Below are positions 3,938-54,315 of a DNA stretch of 64,000 nt, piece after piece. The translations under genes and the position numbers were made by a program. The notes beneath the pieces are model-generated. The model was not told the origin of the DNA. It saw only the letters and a program-made list of their open reading frames with translations, and made no database searches. Where the stretch lies: NCBI GenBank assembly GCA_900319235.1, contig ONNR01000018.1, forward strand, positions 1 through 64,000, in the 5' to 3' direction. The stretch comes from an uncultured Prevotellaceae bacterium. GTDB lineage: Bacteria; Bacteroidota; Bacteroidia; Bacteroidales; UBA3663. Each line of letters begins with the position of its first letter. The first letter of the stretch is position 1.

Positions 3938-3970
3938 GAGACTATAATTAAAGATATTTGGTGGCTTGAG

Positions 3971-4024
3971 GATCTAGAGATTCTAGAAGATCTAGACTAT
4001 CTAGAATATCTAGAGAATCTAGAG
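3971..4024. repeat. 9-bp CTAGA array between GH115 and uxuB
   Basis: Six back-to-back 9-bp units share an NNTCTAGAN core (GATCTAGAG, ATTCTAGAA, GATCTAGAC and so on). Because TCTAGA is itself palindromic, the whole array reads alike on both strands. It sits in the 94-bp spacer inside a presumed operon. Confidence 0.88.
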
Positions 4025-4031
4025 AAAAAAA

Positions 4032-9070: not shown

Positions 9071-9110
9071 AGCGCGACATGAAATGAAACTCATGCCGCG
9101 CTAGTTTTAT
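9071..9110 (+). terminator. Terminator of the P-type ATPase gene
   Basis: AGCGCGACATGA (9071-9082) pairs with TCATGCCGCGCT (9091-9102) with one mismatch, and AGTTTTAT follows. It begins 5 bp after the stop codon. Confidence 0.78.
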
Positions 9111-9113
9111 AGA

Positions 9114-9158
9114 AGATCTAGATAATCTAGAAAATCTAGAGAGTCTAGACAGCCTAGA
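9114..9158. repeat. 9-bp CTAGA array between convergent genes
   Basis: Five 9-bp units (AGATCTAGA, TAATCTAGA, AAATCTAGA, GAGTCTAGA, CAGCCTAGA) lie between the ATPase terminator and the GH10 stop codon. The core matches the arrays at 3971 and 52120. Confidence 0.88.
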
Positions 9159-9160
9159 TA

Positions 9161-10282: not shown

Positions 10283-10306
10283 TGTTTAATTATTTGGGGT
10301 TTAGGA

Positions 10307-10387
10307 ATCGGAGTAATCGGATTTTTCGGAGGGTTCGGAATAATCGGAGGAATCAGAGTAATCGGAATACTCCGAGTACTCAGAGTC
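10307..10387. repeat. 9-bp ATCGGAGTA-type array in the xylan operon
   Basis: Nine consecutive 9-bp units with core NTCGGANNN (ATCGGAGTA, ATCGGATTT, TTCGGAGGG, TTCGGAATA and so on) fill most of the 103-bp gap between two operon genes. The last unit overlaps the stop codon of the GH35-like gene (10386-10388). Confidence 0.88.
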
Positions 10388-16781: not shown

Positions 16782-16921
16782 AAAGGGATACTAAGGGATA
16801 TTTGGGGACTTTAAGGGATATTAAGGGACGATACATTCGCCTGTAGAAAAAGAGGCAAAAAAAGTATCGTCCCTTAATATCCCTTAATATCCCTTTTTTC
16901 TCTTAAAATCCCTTAGTTTTT
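16782..16921. repeat. Long palindromic element, copy A
   Basis: Arms built of AAGGGATATT units face their inverted copies. The inner 24 bp (16811-16834 and 16864-16887) are perfectly complementary, with a 29-nt loop that carries ATTCGCCTGTAGA. The outer units extend the pairing imperfectly to about 140 bp, and T-rich tracts follow. Copies B (28354) and C (33884) share the unit and the loop core. It lies downstream of the esterase gene, upstream of the SusC promoter. Confidence 0.88.
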
Positions 16922-25971: not shown

Positions 25972-26012
25972 ACTATAGTGACTATAGTTATTATAGTTAC
26001 TATAGCCACTAC
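25972..26012. repeat. 9-bp ACTATAGTN array
   Basis: Units ACTATAGTG, ACTATAGTT, ATTATAGTT, ACTATAGCC and a decayed fifth fill the gap between two leftward genes. The core CTATAG is palindromic. Confidence 0.82.
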
Positions 26013-28353: not shown

Positions 28354-28492
28354 TAAGGGACATTAAAGGATATTAAGGGATATTAAGGGATTCTAAGGGA
28401 CGTATGTTTCTTGGGCCCCCATTCTCTACAGGCGAAGGTAACGTCCCTAAATATCCCTTAATATCCCCAATATCCCTTAATATCCCTAAAAA
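28354..28492. repeat. Long palindromic element, copy B (inverted orientation)
   Basis: Left-arm AAGGGATATT units end in AAGGGACGT (28395-28403), and the right arm begins ACGTCCCTAAATATCCC (28441). About 20 of the inner 23 bp pair. The 37-nt loop read on the minus strand contains ACCTTCGCCTGTAGAGAA, matching the loop of copy A, so this copy is inserted in reverse. It lies between convergent aguA and gapA. Confidence 0.87.
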
Positions 28493-28493
28493 A

Positions 28494-28521
28494 GACCGCC
28501 ACTCCTTTTGGAATGGCGGTC
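28494..28521 (-). terminator. Terminator of gapA
   Basis: GACCGCCACTCC (28494-28505) and GGAATGGCGGTC (28510-28521) pair with one mismatch around a TTTT loop. On the minus strand CTTTTTTAG follows. Confidence 0.85.
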
Positions 28522-32810: not shown

Positions 32811-33884
32811 ATGAAAATCGGTTTCGACGCCAAACGCTATTACCATAATCACACAGGCATCGGCAATTACAGCCGTGCCATCATCAAGGGATTGCAAGCG
32901 CTCTATCCCGACGATGACTATCTCCTCTATGACGAGAAGACCTTCTCGCGCACCTTCCGACTGGGACGAAAGGCAGCACGCGACGGCTGTGAACTCTTCC
33001 ATGGCCTCTCCAACGAACTTCCTGCCGACATTCTGAAGAGTGGCGTGCGTTCCATCGTCACCCTGCACGACACGGCATGGCGCACCTACCCGCAGATGTA
33101 CCATTGGATCGATCGCCAAATCTACGACTACAAATATGGTCGCAGTTGCCACATCGCCAACCATGTGCTTGCCATCTCCGAAAGTACCAAGAAGGATGTG
33201 ATGCGCTTCTACGACATTCCCGAAGTCAAGATTTCGGTCATCTATCAGCCCGTCCAGGAACTTTTCTACAAACCACTCTCCAGCGACGAAGCCGACCGGC
33301 TCATTGCCGATGCGGTTTCATCGGGAATGCTTTCGGCTGCCCTTCCCAAAGACTTCATTCTCAACGTGGGCAGCATCAACAGCCGCAAGAACCTACTGGG
33401 ACTCGTCCAGGCCCTCGAGCTCATTCCTGCCGAGCAGCGTCCCCCGCTTCTCGTTGTCGGCAACGGCCACGAATATAAGCGCGACGTAATGAATTACATC
33501 GCAAAGCATCATCTCGAGCGGTATGTCCGTATCGAGACTGGTGTCAGCGACAACAAGGTGTTGCAAGCCCTCTATTCCAAAGCACTCCTGATGGCCTATC
33601 CTTCCCATTATGAAGGTTTCGGACTGCCCGTGGTCGAAGCAGCCCTCCAAGGCTGTCCCATTCTGACCAGCAATGTCAGTTCTCTCCCCGAAGCAGCAGG
33701 ACCAGGTGCCCTACTCTGCGACCCCGCCGATATCGAATCCATCCACAAATATCTCACCGAACTGCTCGACGACAGCAGCATGGCACAACGTCTGGCCGAA
33801 GTAGCCGAGGAATATGCCCGCTGCCATTTCGACCCGCGCACACTCACCGAGCAGCTGCATGAGCTTTACCTAAAAATCTGTTAG
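32811..33884 (+). CDS. GT4-family glycosyltransferase
   Basis: A 357-residue GT-B fold glycosyltransferase. Near the N-terminus GFDAKRYYHNHTGIGNYSR is the family's Gly-rich acceptor loop, and the C-terminal donor site has HYEGFGLPVVEAALQGCP with the E-x7-E motif, followed by SSLPEAAG. No membrane helix. It is probably involved in lipopolysaccharide, capsule or exopolysaccharide synthesis; donor and acceptor cannot be told. Starts one base after the YitT stop codon, so translation is coupled. Confidence 0.9.
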   Translation: MKIGFDAKRYYHNHTGIGNYSRAIIKGLQALYPDDDYLLYDEKTFSRTFRLGRKAARDGCELFHGLSNELPADILKSGVRSIVTLHDTAWRTYPQMYHWIDRQIYDYKYGRSCHIANHVLAISESTKKDVMRFYDIPEVKISVIYQPVQELFYKPLSSDEADRLIADAVSSGMLSAALPKDFILNVGSINSRKNLLGLVQALELIPAEQRPPLLVVGNGHEYKRDVMNYIAKHHLERYVRIETGVSDNKVLQALYSKALLMAYPSHYEGFGLPVVEAALQGCPILTSNVSSLPEAAGPGALLCDPADIESIHKYLTELLDDSSMAQRLAEVAEEYARCHFDPRTLTEQLHELYLKIC

Positions 33885-34026
33885 GGATTTTATAGATATT
33901 AAGGGATTCTAAGGGATATTAAGGGACATCACCTTCGCCTTTCAAGACTTTTTGGCCAAGAAAAACAAACGTCCCTTAATATCCCTAAATATCCCTTAGA
34001 ATCCCCAAGAATCCCTTAGAATCCTA
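33884..34026. repeat. Long palindromic element, copy C
   Basis: TATTAAGGGATTCTAAGG units lead into AAGGGAC (33921-33927), and the right arm opens GTCCCTTAATATCCCT (33971-33986). The inner 16 bp pair perfectly, and further units pair in shifted register. The loop holds CACCTTCGCCTTTCAAGA and GGCCAAGAAA, matching copies A and B. It sits between the convergent GT4 gene and the broken sulfatase; its first bases touch the GT4 stop codon. Confidence 0.85.
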
Positions 34027-38189: not shown

Positions 38190-39149
38190 ATGGCAAAAAA
38201 GCAAGACAATATCTTCTACCGGGTGCTCTACTACATCATCCTCGTGCCAGGCTATGCCGTTTCGCTGCTCCCGATGTGGTGGCATTACTTCTGGTCCGAT
38301 GTGCTCTACCTTTTAATTTATCGCGTAGTGCGTTATCGTCGAAAGGTGGTGCGCCGCAACCTGACGGACAGTTTTCCCGACAAGACAGAAGGCGAACTCC
38401 GCAAGGTGGAGAGGGATTTCTATCACTACTTCTGCGACCTGCTTGTCGAAGCCATCAAGTTCATCTCCATCAGCCGTGAAGAGATGCGTCGTCGCATGAA
38501 CTTCGAAGACATCGAACCTGTCCTCGACTCCTGTCGTCGCGGCAAGAACTGCGCTGTCTATCTTGGCCACTACGGCAACTGGGAGTGGATCAGTTCCCTG
38601 CAACTTTGGATCGACCCGAAGATAGGTCAATGCACACAACTTTACCATCCGCTTGAAAACCCCGCGATGGACCGACTTATGGGATATATCCGACAGCGTA
38701 TGGGTGACATCAACATCCCCGTCGAGCAGTCGGTGCGTCACTTTGTCCGCTATCGTCAGCAGGGCAGGCCTGTCCTCGTAGGCTTTATCGCCGACCAGGT
38801 GCCCCATTGGCGCAACATACACTATTGGACGAACTTCCTTAACCATCCCAAGACGCCCATCTTCACGGGTTCCGAACGACTCACACGCCAGTTCGACATG
38901 GATGCCTACTACCTCCACGTCACCCGACCTCGTCGCGGATATTGGAACGTGCGTTTCGTGCCTATGGCGCGCGACTGCAAGCAGACGCAGGAATTCGAGA
39001 TTACCGAACTCTACACGCGTCTCCTTGAAAAGAACATCCTCGAAGCGCCCCAATACTGGCTGTGGACCCACAACCGCTGGAAGCGTACTTACGAGGAATG
39101 GCTCGTCAAGAAGGAATCCTGGGAAAAGAAGTCCACCCAATCTGAATAA
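38190..39149 (+). CDS. Lipid A acyltransferase (LpxL/HtrB family)
   Basis: A 319-residue inner-membrane enzyme with one N-terminal anchor (VLYYIILVPGYAVSLLPMWW) and the catalytic H-x4-E motif in LGHYGNWEW near residue 127. It also has VRRNLTDSFPDKTE and the RPRRGYWNVRF/YTRLLE... blocks of the lysophospholipid/Kdo2-lipid IVA acyltransferase family. It adds a secondary acyl chain to lipid A. The final residues QSE and the stop codon are encoded by the first unit of a 9-bp repeat array. Confidence 0.9.
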   Translation: MAKKQDNIFYRVLYYIILVPGYAVSLLPMWWHYFWSDVLYLLIYRVVRYRRKVVRRNLTDSFPDKTEGELRKVERDFYHYFCDLLVEAIKFISISREEMRRRMNFEDIEPVLDSCRRGKNCAVYLGHYGNWEWISSLQLWIDPKIGQCTQLYHPLENPAMDRLMGYIRQRMGDINIPVEQSVRHFVRYRQQGRPVLVGFIADQVPHWRNIHYWTNFLNHPKTPIFTGSERLTRQFDMDAYYLHVTRPRRGYWNVRFVPMARDCKQTQEFEITELYTRLLEKNILEAPQYWLWTHNRWKRTYEEWLVKKESWEKKSTQSE

Positions 39150-39223
39150 TCCGAGAACTCTGAGTACTCCGAATAATCCGAAACTCTGAGGACTCCGAAT
39201 AGTCCGAGTACTCCGAGAACTCC
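39141..39223. repeat. 9-bp TCCGAGTAC-type array that supplies the LpxL stop codon
   Basis: Nine units (TCTGAATAA, TCCGAGAAC, TCTGAGTAC, TCCGAATAA, an 8-bp TCCGAAAC, and so on), all 9 bp except one. The TAA of the first unit is the stop of the acyltransferase gene. It ends 13 bp before the helicase ATG. Confidence 0.88.
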
Positions 39224-44419: not shown

Positions 44420-44815
44420 AAGCATTATGTCGCCCGTCAGAGTGCTATTTCCCGTAGAAGAAAGCATCGCGTCGGCCGTCAGAGTACTATTTCCCGTAGA
44501 AGAAAGCATCACGTCGGCCGTCAGAGTACTATCTCCCGTAGAAGAAAGCATCGCGTCGGCCGTCAGAGTGCTATTTCCCGTAGAAGCAAGCATCATGTCG
44601 GCCGTCAAAGTGCTATTTTCTTTAGAAGAAAGCATCGTGTCAGCTGTCAGAGTACTATCTCCCGTAGAAGAAAGTATTATGTCGGCCGTCAGAGTGTTAT
44701 TTCCTGTAGAAGAAAGCATCCTGTCGGCCGTCAGAGTGCTATTTCCCGTAATAGGAAGCATTATGTCGGCCGTCAGAGTGACATTTCCGTTGGAGCAAGC
44801 CTCGTGTCGCGCAAC
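44420..44815. repeat. 42-bp tandem array, nine units
   Basis: Units begin with AAGCAT at 44420, 44462, 44504, 44546, 44588, 44630 (as AAGCAT), 44672 (AAGTAT), 44714 and 44756, exactly 42 bp apart, with a partial tenth near 44797. Each carries GTCGGCCGTCAGAGT and CCCGTAGAAGAAAGC, and differences between units are single-base. Frames on both strands stay open (143 and 119 codons) only because the unit lacks stops. The palindromic cores CGGCCG and AGTACT are present but no long hairpin arm, unlike the arrays at 121 and 44860. Confidence 0.9.
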
Positions 44816-44859
44816 TTAATGCTCTATGACGTTGACGGTACTAGTTGCGGACAAATAGT

Positions 44860-45150
44860 ACCATCTCACCACAATATTGCACTACTTGTGTACACGTGGA
44901 ACAATCTCCGCCGCAATATTGTACTGCCCGTGTACACTTGATACCATCTCACGGCAAGATTGCACTGCTTGTGTACACTTGGTACAATCTCGCCGCAATA
45001 TTGTACTGCCTGTGTACACTTGATACAATCTCACGGCAAGATTGCACTACTTGTGCGCAATTGATACAATCCTCTTCGCAAGATTGTACTACTTGTGTAC
45101 ACTTAGTACCATCTCACCGCAAGATTGCACCATTTGCGAACAGATAGTAC
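44860..45150. repeat. 41-bp tandem hairpin array, seven units
   Basis: Units start at 44860, 44901, 44943, 44984, 45025, 45066 and 45108, mostly 41 bp and twice 42 bp where one base is inserted. Each holds an inverted pair such as GTACAAT...ATTGTAC or CAATCT...AGATTG around a CGCCG-rich loop, plus the palindrome GTGTACAC. The 41-bp step shifts the reading frame in each unit, which argues strongly against a protein. Confidence 0.9.
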
Positions 45151-48800: not shown

Positions 48801-48877
48801 CGACGGGTATATGGCTTTTTTGTGTCCCAAAACAAAATTGTTAATTATTAATTGTTAATTGTTATTTTTATATTATT

Positions 48878-49669
48878 ATGCCAAAGATTGAAAAAGAATT
48901 CAGTGTAGAAGAGAAGCTGGCTAACCTTTACAAGCTGCAGCTTTACGTTTCGGAAATCGACCGTATCAAGGGTCTGCGTGGTGAACTGCCACAGGAAGTG
49001 GAGGATATGGAACGCGAGGTGGAAGAACTCAACGCCCGCATTGCCAAGTTCCACGAGGACATCGAGGCCTGCCATCACAAGATCCAGGATATGCAGGAGA
49101 AGATCACCCAGGCCGAAGAGCTGATTGAGCAGTACACCCATCAGCAGGATGATGTACAGAACAACAAGCAGTATGAGTTCCTGACCAAGGAGATCGAGTA
49201 TCAGGGTCTGGAAATCGAACTGGCCAACAAGCGCATCCGCGAGAACCTCGACCAGATTGCCTTGTTCGAAGAGAGAGAGGCCAACTGCCGCAAGGAAGTG
49301 GAGGAGCGCCGTGGCGACCTTGAGACCAAGAAGGGCGAGTTGGACGAGATCATCGCCGAGACCCGCAACGAGGAGGAAGTAATGCGAGAGAAGGCCAAGA
49401 AGATCGAGAACTCGATGACCGACAAGAGCCTGATGACAACGTTCCAGCGCATCCACCGCAAGGCACACAACGGCCTGGCTATCGTTCCCATCGAGCGCGA
49501 ATCGTGCTCGGGTTGCTTCAACAAGGTGACCCCACAACGTCAGATTGATGTGAAGCTCCGCAAAAAGATCATTACCTGCGAATACTGCGGCCGTATCCTC
49601 ATCGACGAAGACCTGGCCAACCAGAACGAGATGCGTCGCCGCAAGAAGGGACTCCTGGCCGGCCTCTAA
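48878..49669 (+). CDS. Coiled-coil C4 zinc-ribbon protein (PF02591 type)
   Basis: A 263-residue protein: a long antiparallel coiled coil (about 10-190, heptad-rich, Glu/Lys) and a C-terminal C4 zinc ribbon with Cys pairs CSGC and CEYC. In many Bacteroidota the gene sits directly after nif3; here nif3 is nearby but on the other strand with DUF3078 between. A nucleic acid- or protein-bridging role is suspected for the family. dnaB follows after 6 bp. Confidence 0.88.
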   Translation: MPKIEKEFSVEEKLANLYKLQLYVSEIDRIKGLRGELPQEVEDMEREVEELNARIAKFHEDIEACHHKIQDMQEKITQAEELIEQYTHQQDDVQNNKQYEFLTKEIEYQGLEIELANKRIRENLDQIALFEEREANCRKEVEERRGDLETKKGELDEIIAETRNEEEVMREKAKKIENSMTDKSLMTTFQRIHRKAHNGLAIVPIERESCSGCFNKVTPQRQIDVKLRKKIITCEYCGRILIDEDLANQNEMRRRKKGLLAGL

Positions 49670-49675
49670 TGCGAC

Positions 49676-51259
49676 ATGCCTACGAACAACAACTTTAGTC
49701 CAAACGGAGGTGCGCCGGCCAACCGTCGCAATACCCGTACACAATCGCCCCAGCAACCTGCTTTGGGCAAGGTACAGCCTCAAGCCACCGAGGTGGAAGA
49801 GGCTGTGCTGGGTGCCCTTATGCTCGAAAAGGACGCCTACTCGGTAATCTCCGACCTGCTGAAGCCCGAATCTTTCTACGACCACAAGCACCAGCTGATC
49901 TTTGCTGCCATCCAGGAACTGGCATTCAACCAGGAACCTATCGACATGCTGACGGTGACCAACCGTCTGCAACGCAATGGTGTGATCGAAGAGGTGGGCG
50001 GTGCCTACTACATCGCCACTCTGACGGGCAAGGTGGGCTCGGCGGCCAACATCGAGTATCATGCGAAAATCATCGCCCAGAAGTCGCTGGCACGCCAACT
50101 GATCAACTATGCAGGCAAACTCGAGTCGGCAGCATTCGACGAGACGACCGACATCGACGCCTTGATGCAAAGTGCCGAAGGAGAGCTGTTCCAACTCTCG
50201 CAGCACAACATCAAGAAGGACGTCATCCAGATTGACCCTGTGATTCAGGATGCGCTGAAGAAGATCGAGCAGGCTTCGAATCGCGACGACGGCCTATCGG
50301 GTCTGCCTTCTGGCTTCCACGACCTTGACAAGATCACCTCCGGTTGGCAGAACACCGACCTGGTGATTATCGCAGCACGCCCTGCCATGGGCAAGACGGC
50401 GCTGGTGCTTTCGATGGTGAAGAACATGGCGGTGAACTACAACATTCCCGTCGGCATGTTCAGCTTGGAGATGAGTAACCTTCAGCTCGTGAACCGATTG
50501 CTGCAGAACGTCTGCGAAATCTCGGGCGAGAAGGTGAAGAGCGGTAGGCTGACCAGCGATGAGTGGACCAAACTGACCACTCGAATCACCCAACTGCAAG
50601 GTGCCCCCATTTATGTAGACGACACCCCAGGTCTGTCGGTATTCGAACTTCGCACGAAAGCCCGCCGACTGGTGCGCGAACATGGCGTGAAGATCATTAT
50701 GATCGACTACCTGCAGCTGATGACGGCCGCTGGTATGCAATTCGGTTCGCGCGAACAGGAGGTTTCGACCATTTCGCGTTCGCTGAAAGGATTGGCCAAG
50801 GAACTCGACATCCCGATCATCGCACTGTCGCAGTTGAACCGTGGTGTCGAGACTCGCCAAGGCGAGGGAAAGCGTCCCCAGTTGGCCGACCTTCGCGAGT
50901 CGGGTGCCATCGAACAGGATGCCGATATGGTGTGCTTTATCCATCGTCCCGAGTACTACAAGATCTTCGAGGATGAGAAAGGCAACGACCTGCGCGGCCT
51001 GGCCGAAATCATCATCGCCAAGCATCGTAGCGGTTCAGTAGGCGACGTTCGCCTGAGGTTCCGTGGCGAGTTCGTTCGTTTCCAGAACCTTGACGAGGAC
51101 TCGAGCCTCACCCCCACCCTCACCCCTTGGAGCGGTGACCACGAACTGACGTCTCGTATGGACAACGAACCACGTCCCGATATGTCACAACAGCCTAATG
51201 GTTTCGAAGCTCCTTCGGGCAGCTTCGGCGCACCCGAACCAGGGGAAGCTCCATTTTAA
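49676..51259 (+). CDS. dnaB: Replicative DNA helicase DnaB
   Basis: A 527-residue hexameric replicative helicase. The N-terminal domain begins around residue 38 (EVEEAVLGALMLEKDAY) after a disordered Asn/Gln tail. The RecA-like domain has Walker A ARPAMGKTA near 233, Walker B MIDYLQLM and SQLNRGVE/RPQLADLRESGAIEQDADM; no intein is present. The C-terminus is long, Pro/Gly/Ser-rich and includes a SLTPTLTPW stretch from a CCCTCACCC-like repeat. A 9-bp array starts right at the stop codon. Confidence 0.97.
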   Translation: MPTNNNFSPNGGAPANRRNTRTQSPQQPALGKVQPQATEVEEAVLGALMLEKDAYSVISDLLKPESFYDHKHQLIFAAIQELAFNQEPIDMLTVTNRLQRNGVIEEVGGAYYIATLTGKVGSAANIEYHAKIIAQKSLARQLINYAGKLESAAFDETTDIDALMQSAEGELFQLSQHNIKKDVIQIDPVIQDALKKIEQASNRDDGLSGLPSGFHDLDKITSGWQNTDLVIIAARPAMGKTALVLSMVKNMAVNYNIPVGMFSLEMSNLQLVNRLLQNVCEISGEKVKSGRLTSDEWTKLTTRITQLQGAPIYVDDTPGLSVFELRTKARRLVREHGVKIIMIDYLQLMTAAGMQFGSREQEVSTISRSLKGLAKELDIPIIALSQLNRGVETRQGEGKRPQLADLRESGAIEQDADMVCFIHRPEYYKIFEDEKGNDLRGLAEIIIAKHRSGSVGDVRLRFRGEFVRFQNLDEDSSLTPTLTPWSGDHELTSRMDNEPRPDMSQQPNGFEAPSGSFGAPEPGEAPF

Positions 51260-51402
51260 AGGTTTAGAAAGGTTAAGAGGGGTTTTGAAAGGTTCGAAAG
51301 GTTAAGAGGAGTTTAGAAAGATTCGAAGGGTTCGTTTTTTTCGGAATACCGGAATCCCGTTATAACGTAATTTCGATATAACTTAATACCGAATCGCGTG
51401 AA
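51260..51402. repeat. Two successive 9-10 bp arrays after dnaB
   Basis: First, 51260-51336: AGGTTTAGAA, AGGTTAAGAGG, GGTTTTGAA, AGGTTCGAA and similar units. Then, after a short T-run, 51341-51402: TCGGAATAC, CGGAATCCC, CGTTATAAC, resembling the array at 38101. The first unit type also occurs inside the GH115 gene and at the 3' end of the TPR gene (56319). Confidence 0.8.
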
Positions 51403-52119: not shown

Positions 52120-52155
52120 ATCTAGTACATCTAGAATATCTAGTACATCTAGATA
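52120..52155. repeat. 9-bp ATCTAGTAC array
   Basis: Four exact 9-bp units (ATCTAGTAC, ATCTAGAAT, ATCTAGTAC, ATCTAGATA) lie between the convergent DUF4919 gene and the degP terminator. Confidence 0.85.
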
Positions 52156-53916: not shown

Positions 53917-54294
53917 GCAGTAGGCCTGTCTGTCGCTCGCTCCACGCGAGAGGAAAGTCCGGGCTACACAGGGCTCCATGCCGGTTAACAGCCGGTAGGC
54001 GGCGACGTTTAGGTTAACGTAACAGAAAATAACCGCCCCGCAAGGGGTAAGGGTGAAAAGGCGAGGTAAGAGCTCACCGCACACTTGGTAACAAGGCGTG
54101 GCTGTACGTCCCATGGGTTGTAAGATCATGTATACTGGTGGTTGGTACGTGTCGGAAACGATACTGTGTCCATGAAGGGCGGCCCGTCCAAGCCAGGGGG
54201 TAGATTGCTAAAGTGCGTCAGTAATGGCGAACTCAGATCAATGGCAGACACCTGTCGAAAGACAGGGACGGAACCCGGCTTATCAGCCTACTGC
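53917..54294 (+). ncRNA. rnpB: RNase P RNA, bacterial class A
   Basis: A 378-nt RNA, the catalytic subunit that removes 5' leaders from tRNA precursors. The ends pair as P1 (GCAGTAGGC with GCCTACTGC). The universal cores are present: GAGGAAAGTCCGGGC near the 5' end, ACAGAAAATAACCGCC, AAGGGTGAAAAGGCG with GGTAAGAGCTCACCG, and GACGGAACCCGGCTTATC near the 3' end. A T-run (54296-54301) ends transcription 22 bp before the next gene. Exact ends are by pairing. Confidence 0.97.
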
Positions 54295-54315
54295 ATTTTT
54301 TACTAAAAACCGAGA

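Follow-up and report, generated by a model that had tools for sequence, protein, structure and literature searches.

A probable MITE-like family of long hairpin elements at gene ends in one genus of Bacteroidales

The three long hairpins of the window (the whole 64,000-nucleotide stretch of DNA that was analysed) are very probably members of a non-autonomous, MITE-like mobile family with an interior that consists of one long hairpin. The family has spread recently, is restricted to one genus and gains and loses units of its arms. The preliminary description of the hairpins had proposed either a mobile element or an RNA role. The former is upheld by terminal inverted repeats (TIRs) and target-site duplications (TSDs) of 7-9 bp in the full-length members, by near-identical copies at unrelated sites and by empty orthologous sites; the RNA roles are not.

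The hairpins of the window and the extent of the family

Copies A, B and C are each a hairpin of about 135 bp, and in RNA folding none of 200 shuffled sequences was as stable. Folds and covariance-model matches place them within a few bases of the positions first given. One correction concerns orientation: copy B points the opposite way to A and C.

16782..16914, + strand: copy A, hairpin element without TIRs; covariance model R1 129 bits; fold -70.8 kcal/mol, z -11.8
16783..16828, + strand: left arm of copy A, tandem AAGGGATATT units, 10 bp x 4.6 (TRF)
16811..16834, + strand: 5' side of the inner stem of copy A, 24 bp (fold)
16835..16863, + strand: apical loop of copy A with ATTCGCCTGTAGA (fold and alignment)
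16864..16887, + strand: 3' side of the inner stem of copy A, 24 bp (fold)
16870..16915, + strand: right arm of copy A, tandem TCCCTTAATA units (TRF)
28355..28489, - strand: copy B, hairpin element without TIRs, near the family consensus; covariance model 146 bits; fold -75.1 kcal/mol, z -10.2
28494..28521, no strand assigned: terminator-like hairpin of the convergent gene, intact beside copy B (from sequence; conserved at the empty site in genome G007)
33881..34017, + strand: copy C, hairpin element without TIRs; covariance model 121 bits; fold -53.9 kcal/mol, z -8.1

The 24 uninterrupted inner pairs reported for copy A were recovered in the fold (16811-16834 with 16864-16887), and the arms of the window copies are 10-bp tandem arrays according to TRF. 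The loop motif described as conserved, CTTCGCCTGTAGA...CAAGAAACATACG, is exact in copy B but only similar in copies A (ATTCGCCTGTAGA) and C (CTTCGCCTTTCAA). TIRs and target duplications are absent from all three copies. Each copy lies 3' of a gene, as first described. Copy B is found between convergent genes, flanked on one side by a gene stop (28348) and on the other by the convergent gene's terminator, and the TAG stop (33882-33884) of the gene upstream of copy C is made up of the first bases of that copy (ORF end).

The suggestion of a genome-wide family is supported. Copy A gives 99 BLAST matches in the source MAG (3.7 Mb), which represent about 40 places as palindromes match on both strands. 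Model R1 was built from 30 copies, and the search of the genome and its relatives that had been proposed found further copies, dozens of them in the source MAG and two relatives. The R1 matches, with both strands counted, number 108 in G000, 112 in G003 and 119 in G013; the remaining 12 genomes of the genus have few matches or none at all. An order-wide search of 295 genomes found the family only in this genus, apart from one weak match. The exact core pattern, searched in 84,980 species, matched only the Bacteroidales MAGs Tb.RUG.418 (JAEEUA01) and Reindeer_1_mag_244 (CAJOLH01). The hosts look like one group of mostly rumen bacteria, and these two MAGs appear from their names to be rumen-derived. 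The element core was not found in viral contigs, and the TIR pattern gave 10 matches there, by our estimate about the number expected by chance. Plasmids and phages were searched with blastn and rejected. A search of the window with the Rfam covariance models gave no match to the hairpins and identified only RNase P, a bacterial RNase P RNA of class A at 53917-54298.

The elements are about 130-330 bp long, occur in dozens of copies per genome and hold no transposase gene; many copies in G009 are about 195 bp. In the interior, two inverted arms, with 4-5 purine-rich units of 10 bp in tandem, lead to an apical stem (GGACG/CGTCC) and a loop, and together these form the long hairpin. The forward consensus is TTAGGGATATT AAGGGATATT TGGGGATATT AAGGGATATT AAGGGACGTTACCTTCGCCTGTAGAGAATGGGACCCAAGAAACATACGTCCCTTA, followed by GAATCCCTTA-like units. 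In a longer subset CTCAAGTTTCGCATTTGCTCAACTTGATGG and ATCATCAACTTTCGCATTTGCGAAAGTTGAG flank the arms on the outside.

Arm types, pairing and the favoured strand

The TIR and the GGACG/CGTCC apical stem are common across the genus while the arm units vary. Arm type CGGGAGTTAA is found in G003 and G000, type AAGGGGAGTA in G004, G009 and one copy in G000, type GGAGTTAACGG in G011, and AAGTTAAAG-like units in G001 and G011. A GTTCGGTCACGTCCGAGAG loop module and a CGCCTT loop motif are common to several arm types in G003 and G000; the loops in G004 and G009 differ beyond the apical stem. One loop insert is a 28-nt GTTYCCGTTCGGTCACGTCCGAGAGAAG segment. Another, an AT-rich AATTGTTAATTATTAATTG segment, is found in the loops of several copies (L030, L092 and L093), stands alone as a module at window positions 48836-48878 and replaces one arm of the copy B orthologue in G005 and G003.

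The compensatory arm changes that had been proposed as a check are absent within the AAGGGATATT type, where the covariation check found no arm pair changed on both sides, but they are seen between arm types, where arms mostly pair better with their own type. In a test of eight elements, own-type pairing ranged from -36 to -65 kcal/mol (mean -46.9) and cross-type pairing had a mean of -31.2. The AAGGGATATT left arms reached only -17 to -33 kcal/mol with other types, and some other cross-type pairs overlapped the own-type range. The arm units are replaced wholesale between versions of the element with both arms still complementary, and this own-type pairing is the compensatory signal that is lacking inside the AAGGGATATT type.

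A single hairpin with 9-bp TTAAGGGGA arm units was seen at L128 1501-1608 in a genome of another family (G218) and may have acquired this architecture independently.

The one-sided departures from Watson-Crick pairing in 90 distinct copies give, on the forward strand, 150 G-U pairs and 33 A-C pairs (115 and 29 when one pair with frequent G-U is left out). The binomial P of 2.6e-13 overstates this strand bias because the copies share ancestry. The bias favours folding of the forward strand, either as RNA or as single-stranded DNA. Of the 72 copies found in gaps between co-oriented genes, 52 have the forward strand antisense and 20 have it sense (P 2e-4), and this mostly antisense position of the favoured strand argues against selection on host mRNA.

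Terminal repeats, orthologous sites and gene ends

Copies were gathered locus by locus with nhmmer. The full-length form is bounded by the TIR CTCAAGTTTCGCA...TGCGAAAGTTGAG, which is present on both sides in 12 of the 101 extracted copies, on one side in 6 and on neither in 83. A perfect TSD of 7-9 bp, mostly T...A, was found in 18 of the 42 TIR-bounded elements of the genus, compared with a mean of 0.73 and a maximum of 5 in 1000 shuffles of the flanks; no perfect TSD of at least 7 bp was found in the other 24. In the TIR-less copies TSDs are not above chance (3 against 2.5 expected). The duplications that had been named as the mark of a MITE are thus a property of the full-length, TIR-bounded form and not of the TIR-less form, which includes the window copies.

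The TIR-bearing copies of G003 are 96-98% identical at different loci, and the similarity stops at the TIR or within a few bases of it. Near-identical TIR-bounded copies at different loci with TSDs indicate recent transpositions of a MITE-like element. A TIR-less composite is found at two loci with different flanks at 94.7% identity. Solo CTCAAGTTTCGCAAATGCGAAACTTGAG-type palindromes without an interior were seen at L139, L143, L153 and L163 and are possibly remnants of excision.

Orthologues in other species were identified for 13 copies, with a flank identity of 80-97%. Arm differences between orthologues amount to entire 10-bp units, and the loops are altered or have gained inserts. The orthologue of copy B is one 10-bp unit shorter in G013 and decayed in G005 and G003, and the site is empty in G007. 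The site of copy C holds no element in G005, G006 and G007. The region of copy A has no recognisable element in G013 and G007, where the flank is poorly alignable. Other empty sites are those of L020 (in G003, G006, G007 and G013), L021 (four genomes), L027 (G005, G006 and G007), L039 (G013), L072 (G000) and L093 (G013). As the orthologous sites of TIR-less copies are empty, the TIR-less form also arrived by insertion. Unrelated short-unit arrays at some of the sites in relatives imply that local turnover also occurs. The G003 orthologue of window position 10306 carries an AAGGG element where an array of the AATCGGAGT / TCCGAGTAC type stands in the window.

The intergenic site of L039 is occupied in G007 and G005 by C-rich tandem repeats such as CCCTCGAACTCTTGAA (orthologues L289 and L291). 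Within the window, foldable arrays of AATCGGAGT / TCCGAGTAC units of about 9 bp lie at 10306-10386 and 39144-39223, and 9-bp arrays with TCTAGA palindromes lie at gene ends at 3968-4026, 9110-9160 and 52120-52152. The TCTAGA arrays are intergenic and have self-complementary short units like the arms of the element, with unrelated sequence. Further short-unit arrays are found at 25972-26005 (ACTATAGTT) and 51254-51332 (AAAGGTTTAG), and longer tandem arrays with units of 41-42 bp at 121-487, 44420-44809 and 44859-45130.

With genes called by a home-made codon model, divergent gene pairs hold 2 of 99 copies where 24% would be expected from intergenic length (P 6e-10), and the edges of the copies are concentrated around stop codons, at distances of up to about 10 bp. 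Because the arm units hold TAA or TAG and have a period that three does not divide, a copy can close a reading frame immediately. L020 is located in an ATGA gene overlap and, as read from the sequence, has apparently left the stop after the same residue. The location at gene ends is taken as survival at harmless sites; gene ends may also be targeted.

Modes of spread and relation to known repeats

The full-length insertions would be the work of a transposase that acts on the TIRs in trans. The TIR-less copies, including all three in the window, would have arisen secondarily and would enter new sites with no duplication of the target, perhaps via a folded single strand, because the pairing of one strand is preserved. 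Copies would persist where they are least harmful, that is at gene ends, with the arm units TAAGGG and TTAGGG giving stop codons.

No autonomous partner and no transposase gene between such TIRs was found in the draft MAGs, which are 63-90% complete and make the absence of an enzyme weak evidence. Three candidate mobilisers were rejected: RAYT/IS200 matched neither element abundance nor the TIR, reverse transcriptase does not track element abundance, and the DDE_Tnp_1 genes are few and not TIR-flanked. A TIR next to an ATPase gene at L161 was rejected as an autonomous copy because the second TIR is missing.

It is possible, though we consider it unlikely, that the TIR-less core is the primary mobile unit, which moves as a folded single strand, in the manner of IS200/IS605-REP elements or integron attC sites, and leaves no TSD, and that the TIR form arose later as a composite. 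Such a history would agree with the 83 of 101 copies without TIRs, the TIR-less copies without TSDs, the recent TIR-less insertions and the one-sided arm changes that favour G-U on one strand (150 against 33). However, the Y1 transposase PF01797 is present in G003 but absent from G000 and G013, although these MAGs are 86-90% complete, the ends of the insertions vary, and the TIR-bounded copies clearly transpose with TSDs. A mechanism in which the hairpin core is mobile without TIRs or TSD, one strand folds and an enzyme inserts it at gene ends, while the arms are rewritten in concert, with the unit replaced in both, and the part that is recognised, apical stem plus loop, is retained, is rather doubtful.

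An origin without transposition, in which slippage and palindrome-templated copying create short-unit arrays locally between genes and gene conversion or microhomology spreads them, appears improbable. Changes in the arms do comprise entire 10-bp units, gene ends in the window hold other 9-10-bp palindromic arrays, at 10306-10386 a different array replaces an element present in G003, and one empty site bears TAAAGGATATG, which resembles the arm unit. The loop and TIR are nevertheless common to different loci and arm types, TSDs are found at TIR-bounded copies, and no array resides at several of the empty sites.

A host-useful 3'-end RNA, with hairpins that block exonucleases, end transcription or yield a processed RNA, could account for the very stable folds, the copies at gene 3' ends and the retention of orthologous copies where flank identity is 80-97%, but it is highly improbable in view of the patchy distribution inside one genus, orthologue loops that differ or carry inserts, a strand bias that is antisense to co-oriented genes (52 of 72), the intact terminator adjoining copy B and the Rfam search without a match, and neither the protective mRNA 3' end nor the processed hairpin RNA first proposed found positive evidence. 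The arms end in CCCTTA and not in a GC-rich stem directly followed by a T run as in an intrinsic terminator, and the terminator beside copy B is a separate one.

As a MITE-like mobile family, the element is nearest in kind to BrickBuilt, from which it differs in unit length, arrangement and TIR. BrickBuilt, found in Porphyromonas gingivalis, is a MITE that contains a minisatellite; its direct repeats of 23 nt are placed between a leader and a tail, and its TIRs are ISPg1-like (PMC4596501). Both occur in the same order, have inverted-repeat ends and encode no transposase (PMC4596501), whereas the element described here has units of 10-11 bp in two inverted arms round a loop, TSDs of 7-9 bp and mostly TIR-less copies, and the BrickBuilt TIRs as printed show no evident resemblance to its own TIR, CTCAAGTTTCGCA (PMC4596501).

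REPs are 20-40 bp long with a GTAG or CGTC tag, the GTAG type being associated with RAYT (PMC3116915, PMC3733652). REPs and REPINs resemble the present family as extragenic hairpins, many of them 3' of genes, for which single-strand mobility has been proposed (PMC3116915, PMC3733652). The family differs from them in its 135-bp arms-and-loop structure, its forms with TIR and TSD and the lack of a Y1 transposase in G000 and G013. CGTC is here not a tag of the REP kind but lies in the paired apical stem. ERIC/IRU and other long palindromic enterobacterial repeats are likewise intergenic and MITE-like, with lengths of about 100-170 bp (PMC2759123). Going by their description, these repeats are not known to have arms of 10-bp units or to switch between arm types.

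The genus holds a natural series in which the TIR and the apical stem are constant, the paired arms are swapped and copies occur with or without TIR and TSD. This series makes the spread of bacterial palindromic repeats without an obvious transposase testable, an open question that has been stated also for CGTC-type REPs (PMC3733652). In these genomes short mobile DNA supplies stop codons and fills overlapping gene junctions with no visible damage.
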